From the NCBI GenBank assembly GCA_013360875.1, contig JABWAU010000002.1, forward strand, positions 33,759 through 97,758: 64,000 nt of DNA, read 5' to 3'. Position numbers and translations under genes: made by a program. Of this stretch, positions 61,678 to 63,711 are shown one piece after another. This DNA is from Anaerolineales bacterium. GTDB lineage: Bacteria; Chloroflexota; Anaerolineae; Anaerolineales; Villigracilaceae. Within the stretch, counting starts at the first letter, position 1. Each line of letters opens with the position of its first letter. Below the pieces are notes generated by a model. The model was not told where the DNA came from. It ran no database searches and saw nothing but the letters and a program-made list of their open reading frames with translations.

Positions 61678-61686
61678 TGCTATAAT
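61678..61686 (+). promoter_or_regulatory. Extended -10 promoter of the aspS leader
   Basis: TGCTATAAT, i.e. a consensus TATAAT (61681-61686) with the upstream TGn extension. The -35 region is poor, as is usual for extended -10 promoters. Predicted start of transcription near 61693. The stretch 61433-61677 has no gene. Confidence 0.65.
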
Positions 61687-61699
61687 GCCGCCATTCATT

Positions 61700-61780
61700 A
61701 TGGAGATCAACACCCGCTTCGCCAATAATAATAACGACGATAATGACGACCTCACGCATCGTCGGGCGAAGCCTTGCTAG
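61700..61780 (+). CDS. aspS leader peptide, Asn/Asp-rich (26 aa)
   Basis: ATG at 61700 to TAG at 61778-61780. Codons 9-17 read NNNNDDNDD (AAT AAT AAT AAC GAC GAT AAT GAC GAC), an extreme run for a random ORF. It is placed in the leader of aspartyl-tRNA synthetase and followed by competing hairpins. It begins about 7 bases after the predicted transcript start, without a ribosome site, so near-leaderless initiation is assumed; an in-frame ATG at 61685 would fall on the -10. Predicted role: ribosome stalling when charged tRNA-Asn or tRNA-Asp is low. Confidence 0.82.
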   Translation: MEINTRFANNNNDDNDDLTHRRAKPC

Positions 61781-61850
61781 TTGATGGAGAACCGAGTCGA
61801 ACCCATCGCCCGACGTGGCGCCCAGCGCCACGAAGGGCGATTTATTTTAT
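61716..61850 (+). promoter_or_regulatory. Transcription attenuator of aspS
   Basis: Segment 1 GCTTCGCC (61716-61723) pairs perfectly with GGCGAAGC (61765-61772). Segment 2 CGTCGGGCGA (61760-61769) pairs over 10 bp with segment 3 TCGCCCGACG (61806-61815). Segment 3 ATCGCCC (61805-61811) plus CGTGGCG (61814-61820) pair with CGCCACG (61826-61832) and GGGCGAT (61835-61841). A TTTATTTTAT run completes the terminator. 2:3 and 3:4 exclude each other. Confidence 0.82.
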
Positions 61851-61859
61851 CCATTCCAT

Positions 61860-61927
61860 GTCATTGCGAGTGGCGCCCGCGCTGAGCGGAACGTAGTGGA
61901 GACGAAACACAGCGCCGCTCGAATGAC
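61860..61927. repeat. GTCATTGCGAG inverted-repeat element
   Basis: GTCATTGCGAGTGGCGC at the left and its near complement GCGCCGCTCGAATGAC at the right, between the aspS terminator and ribosome site. Same family as the in-frame element in the helicase. Confidence 0.75.
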
Positions 61928-61944
61928 AGAAAAAGAGGCGCATC

Positions 61945-63711
61945 ATGTACAGAACTCATACTTGCGGAGAATTACGCGCCAGCCACGCGGGGCAGACGGT
62001 CACGCTGGCAGGCTGGGTCAATCGTCGCCGCGACCATGGCGGGGTGGTGTTTTTCGACCTGCGCGACCGTTACGGGGTCGTTCAAGTGACCGTCAACCCG
62101 ACGCTATCGAGGGAGGTTCTCGACAAAGTTGCGAATGTCCGCATGGAGTGGGCGCTGGGAATCGAGGGGGTGGTACAGAAACGTCCCGAAGGGATGGCGA
62201 ATCCCAAAATGGCAACGGGCGAAGTGGAAGTCGTTGCCAGGGACGTGAAAGTGTTGAATCCATCCAAAGTTCTGCCTTTCATGGTCAGCGGCGACAACGA
62301 CCTGCCCGACGAAAATATGCGCCTGAAATACCGCTACCTCGACCTGCGCCGGGAACGCATGACGCGCAACATGATTCTGCGGCACAAGGTAATCAAGTTC
62401 ATGCGCGATTACCTCGACGAACGCGGCTTCATCGAGATCGAAACGCCGATCCTGTTCAAAGCCACGCCCGAAGGCGCGCGAGACTATATCGTTCCATCGC
62501 GCCTGTACCCCGGTCAGTTTTACGCTTTACCGCAATCGCCGCAACAACTAAAACAGCTGCTCATGGTGGCGGGCATGGACAAATATTTCCAGATCGCGCG
62601 CTGTTTCCGCGACGAGGACCTGCGCGGCGACCGCCAGCCCGAGTTCACGCAGCTCGACCTGGAAATGTCCTTCGTCCATCGCGACGATGTGCTGGATTTG
62701 GTCGAAGGCTTGTACAACGCGATGATTCCCGCCGTCGCGCCGCACAAGAAAATCAAATCCATTCCATGGCCCAAACTTTCATACCGCGAAGCCGTGGAAC
62801 GATTCGGCACCGACAAACCCGACTTGCGCTTCGGCATGGAATTGACCGACGTCAGCGATGTGTTTGCGAAGAGCGAGTTCAAGGTCTTCAAGTCTGCACT
62901 GGAGGCGGGCGGAGTGATTAAATGTATCGTCGCGCCGAAAGCGGCGGAGATGTCGCGCAGGGAAGTGGACGCCTTGACCGAGTCCGCGAAAGGGCTGGGG
63001 GCGAAGGGACTGGCTGTCGTCGCAGTAACAGCCGAAGGGTTGAAGGGAAGCGCTGCGAAATTCGTCACGGAAGAGGAAATCGCCGCGCTCAAATCCAAAA
63101 CGGGCGCGGGGGTCGGCGATCTCATCCTGTTCGCAGCGGATGAACGCGCAGTCGTCAACAAGGCGCTGGGCGGTTTACGCCTCATCTTGCGCGACCAATT
63201 GAATCTCGCCGATAAGGATGTGATGGCGTTCGCGTGGATTGTGGACTTCCCGATGTTCGCGTGGAATGAGGAAGAACAGCGCTGGGACGCGGAGCATCAT
63301 CCGTTCACCATGCCGCAACTGGCGGACCTCGACAAGTTCGACACCGATCCCGGCTCGATTTTGTCGGATGCGTATGACATGGTCTGCAACGGCTACGAAA
63401 TGGCGTCGGGTTCGATCCGCATTCACCGCCGCGATATTCAGAATAAAATCTTTCAAATGCTCGGGCACTCGGAGGAAGCCATCAAGGCGAAGTTCGGTCA
63501 CATGCTCGAAGCGTTCGAATACGGCGCGCCCCCGCATGGCGGCATGGCGCCCGGCATTGACCGTCTCGTCATGCTGCTGGCGGACGAACCCAACATCCGC
63601 GAGGTGATTGCCTTCCCGAAGAATCAGGCAGGGCGCGATGTGATGGCAGACGCGCCGTCGGAAGTGGATCCGAAGCAGTTGAAAGAGCTGCATATTCAAT
63701 TTAGAGATTAG
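61945..63711 (+). CDS. aspS: Aspartyl-tRNA synthetase, predicted non-discriminating
   Basis: A 588-aa bacterial-type class II synthetase. N-terminal anticodon-binding OB domain (WVNRRRDHGGVVFFDLRDR), motif 2 CFRDEDLRGDRQPEFTQLD, bacterial GAD insertion (about 290-420), motif 3 GGMAPGIDRLVML. His31 and the RPEG around residue 83 match the residues that, as I recall, mark non-discriminating AspRS of Pseudomonas aeruginosa, where E. coli has Leu and Lys. Such enzymes charge both tRNA-Asp and tRNA-Asn; the Asn product is made by GatCAB. AGAGG before the ATG. Expression probably controlled by the leader attenuator. The TAG stop starts a minisatellite. Confidence 0.95.
   Translation: MYRTHTCGELRASHAGQTVTLAGWVNRRRDHGGVVFFDLRDRYGVVQVTVNPTLSREVLDKVANVRMEWALGIEGVVQKRPEGMANPKMATGEVEVVARDVKVLNPSKVLPFMVSGDNDLPDENMRLKYRYLDLRRERMTRNMILRHKVIKFMRDYLDERGFIEIETPILFKATPEGARDYIVPSRLYPGQFYALPQSPQQLKQLLMVAGMDKYFQIARCFRDEDLRGDRQPEFTQLDLEMSFVHRDDVLDLVEGLYNAMIPAVAPHKKIKSIPWPKLSYREAVERFGTDKPDLRFGMELTDVSDVFAKSEFKVFKSALEAGGVIKCIVAPKAAEMSRREVDALTESAKGLGAKGLAVVAVTAEGLKGSAAKFVTEEEIAALKSKTGAGVGDLILFAADERAVVNKALGGLRLILRDQLNLADKDVMAFAWIVDFPMFAWNEEEQRWDAEHHPFTMPQLADLDKFDTDPGSILSDAYDMVCNGYEMASGSIRIHRRDIQNKIFQMLGHSEEAIKAKFGHMLEAFEYGAPPHGGMAPGIDRLVMLLADEPNIREVIAFPKNQAGRDVMADAPSEVDPKQLKELHIQFRD

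Follow-up and report, generated by a model that had tools for sequence, protein, structure and literature searches.

What sets the output of the aspartate--tRNA ligase gene, aspS, in members of the Anaerolineales, and what could a miniature open reading frame (ORF) with an unbroken run of asparagine and aspartate codons be doing ahead of it? The question is raised by a 64,000-nucleotide stretch of an Anaerolineales genome (contig JABWAU010000002.1; this whole stretch is referred to below as the window), in which such an ORF and a set of competing hairpins precede aspS. We propose that the ORF and the hairpins together constitute a leader-peptide transcription attenuator that would tune aspS, and probably its operon, to how much Asn-tRNA and Asp-tRNA is available, a reading to which we assign a probability of roughly 0.88 on the strength of the sequence. 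The features concerned are as follows.

61678-61686, plus strand: extended -10 element TGC-TATAAT, with TATAAT at 61681-61686 (from the sequence and an alignment of 32 leaders).
61700-61780, plus strand: leader peptide ORF, MEINTRFANNNNDDNDDLTHRRAKPC, 26 codons with the stop TAG at 61778-61780 (from the translation and the leaders in relatives).
61716-61723, plus strand: segment 1, GCTTCGCC, a possible anti-antiterminator (8 bp with 61765-61772).
61724-61750, plus strand: run of nine consecutive Asn/Asp codons, NNNNDDNDD, the predicted ribosome stalling site (from the sequence and shuffles).
61760-61772, plus strand: segment 2, of which 61760-61769, CGTCGGGCGA, forms the predicted antiterminator with segment 3 and 61765-61772 pairs with segment 1.
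61805-61841, plus strand: 3:4 terminator hairpin with 17-nt arms and its loop at 61822-61824; segment 4 is GGGCGA at 61836-61841.
61806-61815, plus strand: segment 3, TCGCCCGACG, common to antiterminator and terminator (perfect 10 bp with segment 2).
61842-61851, plus strand: T-tract of the terminator, TTATTTTATC (from the sequence).
61945-63711, plus strand: aspS, aspartate--tRNA ligase (NCBIfam PRK00476 and TIGR00459 above cut-off; RRDHGG and RPEG motifs).

Leader-peptide attenuation is classical for the trp, his, thr, and ilv operons and for enterobacterial pheST, and reading of several amino acids by a single leader occurs in thr and ilv as well. The locus resembles these systems in having a short ORF rich in regulatory codons, an alternative 2:3 antiterminator, and a 3:4 intrinsic terminator. 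Nine codons within 26 form a single run that matches the amino acids of the downstream genes. The longest Asn/Asp run in 5000 dinucleotide shuffles of the leader region was 6 codons, with 0 of 5000 attaining 9, and the second-longest run of the whole window, both strands included, is also 6 codons (at 4853, minus strand). The original prediction had described a 26-codon leader with nine Asn/Asp codons at 61724-61750, and this holds to the base; the segments that it had drawn behind the run, namely, a 1:2 hairpin of 8 bp, a perfect 2:3 pairing of 10 bp, and a 3:4 terminator with a T-tract, likewise stand, at the coordinates listed above.

Downstream of the run, the RNA is predicted to have two mutually exclusive folds, the 10-bp 2:3 pairing sharing segment 3 with an intrinsic terminator that lies between leader and gene. 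The former is backed by swap tests (described below) and by predicted folds and the latter by sequence and covariation. The region 61678-61945 folds with a z score of -6.11, none of 200 shuffles being equally stable. When the RNA is free from 61752 onward and ends before segment 4, its predicted fold contains 2:3; adding segment 4 turns the prediction to 3:4.

From this anatomy, the following course of events can be proposed. Directed by the extended -10 box, RNA polymerase would start only a few bases ahead of the leader AUG, and the mRNA from which the leader is translated would probably be leaderless or close to it. If charged tRNA-Asn or tRNA-Asp were scarce, the ribosome would stall within 61724-61750, on or just past segment 1, and segment 2 would be left free to pair with the emerging segment 3; the terminator would then be blocked and aspS transcribed. 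If both charged tRNAs were plentiful, a ribosome at the stop (61778-61780) would cover segment 2, 3:4 would form, and transcription would end near 61842-61851. The charged tRNAs themselves would be supplied by a nondiscriminating aspartyl-tRNA synthetase (AspRS) that loads Asp on tRNA-Asn, with GatCAB amidating the product, or, in other relatives, with the help of an asparaginyl-tRNA synthetase (AsnRS) encoded next to it.

Is the leader kept in other genomes? We searched 61 genomes for aspS, the window's own and those of 60 relatives drawn from its genus, family, and order, and obtained 58 upstream regions from 57 of them (G006, G022, G038, and G048 had no usable aspS start, and G031 has two copies). 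A leader was counted wherever an ATG no more than 40 nt from a -10 box opened an ORF with at least 4 Asn/Asp in 6 codons. By this measure, 45 of the 58 regions of the order retain the run, of which 33 are among the 36 family regions and 12 among the 22 from other families; the conservation upstream of aspS that the original prediction proposed to look for is thus present. Asn/Asp leader ORFs were also present at 19 of the 19 closest named public loci, i.e., records labelled Anaerolineae, Anaerolineales, Anaerolineaceae, Anaerolinea, or Chloroflexi, which overlap the surveyed genomes (three correspond to G004, G008, and G019). Two further named loci have one, L085 (Candidatus Roseilinea) and L086 (Anaerolineae), and none of the 59 more distant named loci returned has an ORF at the stricter level of 5 in 6.

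Outside the order, a subset of the matches was sampled (40 + 7 regions from the class and 30 from other classes), some of them short (67 nt upstream in G186 and 318 nt in all in G255). The leader was found in 2 of the 47 regions sampled from other orders of the class (G195 and G224, of one family) and in 0 of the 30 sampled from other classes of the phylum. G183, from another order, has an Asp/Asn ORF and then a hairpin, but the -10 boxes listed for it include none at a suitable distance. A covariance model built from the 32 aligned leaders matched in 100 of 120 family genomes, match positions being compared with aspS only where aspS coordinates were known. A specificity scan over the window and the 19 named loci (438,790 bases when both strands are counted, with 127 -10-like sites) gave 20 hits, all of them the 20 aspS leaders, one per source. 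By anatomy, the element is a conserved leader-peptide attenuator.

Three single cases may be recorded here. On one contig (G031:C10; L019 and L058), about 6 kb separates two aspS genes that each have a leader of their own, and on another (G074:C23), two leader matches are about 5.5 kb apart. The leader of G027 (L025) reads PNIHNANHHD, mostly in NAY codons, which may be chance or a different signal.

Beyond the codon run, what is maintained in these leaders is the RNA. Outside N/D, the leader peptide varies across the order, and the RNA past the run (consensus GTTGGGCGAAGCCTTGCTGGTTGA) is read in different frames by species, giving either ..RWAKPC* or ..VGRSLAG*. Of the 33 family leaders, 31 have GGGCG in the ORF, and in these the stop lies 13 nt (21 leaders), 9 nt (9 leaders), or 10 nt (1 leader) past the motif. 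The RNA and the stop position are thus maintained while the peptide end is not, and, given the usual size of the ribosome footprint, each of these spacings implies that segment 2 would lie under a ribosome that has reached the stop.

Have the pairings themselves been maintained by compensatory changes? The original prediction called for such changes in segments 1 to 4; they were borne out for 3:4 by a covariation score above all shuffles and for 2:3 by the swap tests, and none were found for 1:2. In an alignment of 32 of the 36 family leaders (without G020, G028, G033, and G035, an omission that flatters the pair percentages), 3:4 was paired in 100% of cells and 2:3 in 97.2%. The covariation score of 3:4 and the number of its cells changed on both sides (7) were each above all 500 shuffles. 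For 2:3, the swap test compared cognate with swapped pairs, and the cognate ones were stronger at 17 loci outside the family (p = 0.0012), within the family (36 loci; p = 0.0004), without hand-set arms (14 loci; p = 0.0015), and on leader-bearing loci (12 loci; p = 0.0046). When each of the 10 families contributed a single locus, the 128 possible choices gave a median p of 0.021 (range, 0.003-0.069), and 92% of the sets had p < 0.05. The relatedness of loci is not fully removed from these values. Five of the 22 nonfamily loci were excluded: G037, G040, G047, and G051, in which no terminator was called, and G060, in which the terminator belongs to the upstream gene. Eight terminator arms (G011, G017, G024, G033, G035, G043, G045, and G059) were set by hand because the automatic caller chose a wrong or partial hairpin.

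It is also important to point out what weighs against attenuation by a stalled ribosome. Thirteen of the 58 regions lack a leader by our measure. Among them, G028 keeps the promoter and the terminator and has no Asn/Asp codons at all, G027 has His among Asn/Asp such that the run is broken, and G033 was not counted since its ORF, in which Asn/Asp codons are visible, runs for 60 codons without meeting a stop. Two of the five measures for 3:4 were less decisive: 10 of 500 shuffles reached its 2 pairs with changes on both sides, and 309 of 500 reached its count of further pair types. The covariation of 2:3 in the family alignment did not rise above the shuffles, which we attribute to a helix too conserved to vary. 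As to 1:2, it was paired in 83.4% of family cells versus a shuffled mean of 82.2, with zero changes on both sides, and without any two-sided change it is left unproven as an evolutionarily tested helix. Among the one-per-family swap sets, 8% had p values of 0.05 or above. Simple scans picked out neither end of the element: the sigma-70 scan did not list the promoter, which has a poor -35 region without the -35 consensus, and the terminator scan did not pick out 3:4. Finally, at equilibrium, 3:4 (-30.0) is ahead of 2:3 plus its inner hairpin (-26.6), so that antitermination would have to be kinetic, decided during transcription.

The alternative that survives best would make the hairpin a ligand- or protein-responsive, or a constitutive, terminator or attenuator, with the Asn/Asp ORF translated but not acting as a sensor. 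Such an arrangement would suit G028, with its promoter and terminator retained in the absence of the run, and the family alignment, where terminator covariation is better supported than that of 2:3 or 1:2. It does not sit well with a run that is maintained while the flanking peptide and the subsequent frame vary, nor with a codon identity that follows the downstream gene, as set out next, and we consider it unlikely.

The covariance model also matches upstream of genes other than aspS. One of these is asnA, found in 7 of 152 family genomes (three copies were checked with NCBIfam, and 3 of 3 matched TIGR00669). An Asn-rich leader of the same architecture stands directly 5' of asnA in all seven (L176, L177, L178, L180, L185, L187, and L188). 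Together, these leaders spell 50 Asn and 6 Asp, compared with a mean Asp fraction of 0.35 in the family aspS leaders (Fisher p, 1.4e-4; Mann-Whitney p, 2e-4). The stricter statement that the Asp fraction of the asnA leader is lower in every genome was refuted: it is lower in 5 of 7, equal in G123, and higher in G106. Weak matches also occur before two aspartokinase-like genes (L181, G031:C7:16912-17067, and L182, G074:C24:183405-183568), where the leaders contain MTMTMTT and are followed by a hairpin and a T-rich stretch. These may be Met/Thr attenuators, the G031 gene having been called by a profile test and the G074 gene by likeness. Two more matches, at L179 (G118:C95:8755-8918) and L183 (G088:C75:13111-13285), have Thr/Asn-rich leaders and precede a ~435-amino-acid aminotransferase-like protein; the G118 protein scores far below every curated cut-off listed, and the G088 protein was assigned by likeness. 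One more match, in G120, has no such leader.

A codon choice that tracks gene function is hard to explain by a purely structural ORF. Taken together, these leaders could reflect a codon-tuned aspartate-family regulon of the Anaerolineales that is built on leaderless mini-ORFs, one RNA scaffold having moved between genes with Asn/Asp runs before aspS-gatCAB or aspS-asnS, Asn-dominated runs before asnA, and Met/Thr codons before aspartokinase. We lean toward this wider picture, with noticeably less confidence than toward the attenuation of aspS itself.

How would the leader be translated? In the 32 aligned leaders, TATAAT is invariant and TGC is present in at least 90%. The distance from the end of the -10 box to the leader ATG is 13 nt in the window, with a median of 9 nt and a range of 6 to 35 nt among the 45 leaders. 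Transcription is expected to start 6 to 7 nt past a -10 box, which would leave most leaders with only a few bases of 5' untranslated region (5'-UTR). Judged by the position of the -10 box alone, the mRNA probably begins at or just before the leader AUG. In G034, G023, and G032, 16 to 20 nt and a purine-rich GAGG are found ahead of the ATG.

The near-leaderless start and the compactness of the leader would also suit a second alternative, in which leader translation acts otherwise than through a 2:3/3:4 switch, whether by Rho and polarity, by nascent-peptide arrest, or by translation coupling. Called terminators start roughly 45 to 230 nt ahead of aspS, and this gap leaves room for other control. 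Against this, a terminator-like hairpin with a T-rich tail was called in 54 of the 58 aspS upstream regions (the one in G060 being that of the upstream gene), and 2:3 coevolves; nascent-peptide arrest in particular is disfavored by a peptide that is not conserved across the order beyond N/D. We regard this alternative as very unlikely.

A T-box senses uncharged tRNA directly, and T-box control is known for asnS too. Direct tRNA sensing of this kind, of which an example before aspS of Clostridium acetobutylicum is given in the relevant part of PMC2494555, has a negligible chance of applying here: across the window, no match to an Rfam family, a T-box included, was as high as the gathering score, and a short translated leader stands in place of a T-box leader. 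The clostridial case is nonetheless a likeness in part, with the same gene and the same signal, tRNA charging, and a difference in that our leader would be translated. Control of the aspS operon by charged tRNA through a leader peptide is the most likely reading of the locus.

How far would this control extend? In 30 loci, the region downstream of aspS contains gatC in 12 (with gatA too in view in 8) and asnS in 10; the remaining 8 have neither in the downstream stretch seen, in some because the contig ends. The window's aspS stands at a contig end, and contig C92 opens with the window's last 27 bases and continues with dapB (TIGR00036) and gatC (TIGR00135), followed by the start of a gatA-like ORF and, at a greater distance, by asnS. 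The order aspS-dapB-gatC is likely for the window's genome on the basis of this 27-nt overlap and a similar order in relatives. The target is probably wider than the aspS named in the original prediction, i.e., aspS with dapB/gatCAB or with asnS. A separate asnS leader in the window's genome was looked for, and none was seen in the upstream stretch inspected. Repeats (about GGTGGTCGAGTAGCCCCGA...GGGGCGTATCGAGACCAC) are present in 63720-64000 of the window after aspS and return at the start of C92 (G000:C92), the contig that bears aspS breaking off among them.

The enzyme type bears on why two amino acids would be read. A His in RRDHGG and a Gly in RPxG of the anticodon-binding domain mark nondiscriminating bacterial AspRS. 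The window's AspRS has both, its RRDHGG and RPEG being as in 4rmf (a PDB enzyme named Asp/Asn ligase) and unlike 1efw, which has RRDL and RPE with a gap and which we take to be the discriminating Thermus thermophilus enzyme. It is thus probably nondiscriminating and would place Asp onto both tRNA-Asp and tRNA-Asn. All 12 aspS-gatC loci have RRDHGG and RPxG. Of the 10 aspS-asnS loci, 4 have them too, and 6 have RTFGG and RPxDQ instead. In all, 58 sequences were compared, and the latter pair of motifs was seen only in L016, L019, L022, L023, L024, and L026, all of them aspS-asnS loci, where it possibly reflects a switch to a discriminating enzyme. This motif distribution fits the two routes to Asn-tRNA described in the relevant part of PMC4206432, a nondiscriminating AspRS plus GatCAB or an AsnRS. 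By either route, the operon would make both charged tRNAs, and the leader spells both Asn and Asp.

Such an element differs from the classical attenuators in its target (aspS with gatCAB or asnS), its codons (Asn and Asp), its Anaerolineales lineage, and a start codon only a few bases from the predicted transcription start. A mycobacterial precedent comes, by its title, from Canestrari et al. (Mol Microbiol, 2020), in which a polycysteine leaderless short ORF reportedly attenuates an operon. A codon run in a short leader ORF is common to both cases, whereas the amino acid, the genes, and the lineage differ; the leaderless state is given for the mycobacterial ORFs by the paper's title and is suggested here by the -10 position only. 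Within the phylum, two Dehalococcoides are listed with three T-boxes each, one for an Ile synthetase and two for Trp biosynthesis, and with none for aspS, in the part of PMC2494555 that covers them. In Shewanella, a predicted aspS 5'-UTR element, flagged with a terminator and listed as a "tRNA synthetase leader," shares with ours the position of a predicted cis-regulatory RNA before aspS, and the passages of PMC2659441 on it mention no Asn/Asp peptide. Among the papers returned by full-text searches of the open-licence literature, none has a title or displayed abstract on an Asn/Asp leader peptide for aspS, asnS, asnA, or gatCAB, subscription papers being mostly outside those searches. Within that scope, the system is new in target, codons, and lineage, the principle being already known.

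If the attenuator operates as proposed, its mixed Asn/Asp runs would gauge both the direct product of one synthetase and the product of tRNA-dependent amidation, and would show how a cell monitors a charged tRNA whose synthesis takes two steps on the tRNA itself. Natural controls are available in the relatives with a GatCAB or an AsnRS partner and in the asnA copies with Asn-dominated runs. The architecture would also offer a simple way to recognize more attenuators in a phylum whose members are known mostly through metagenomes.

Between the terminator and aspS lies one further feature, an inverted repeat (GTCATTGCGAG ... CTCGAATGAC) at 61860-61927 of the window. Its 11-mer has two occurrences in the window at ≤1 mismatch, which is no more than chance, and similar repeats are found at the same place in several relatives.

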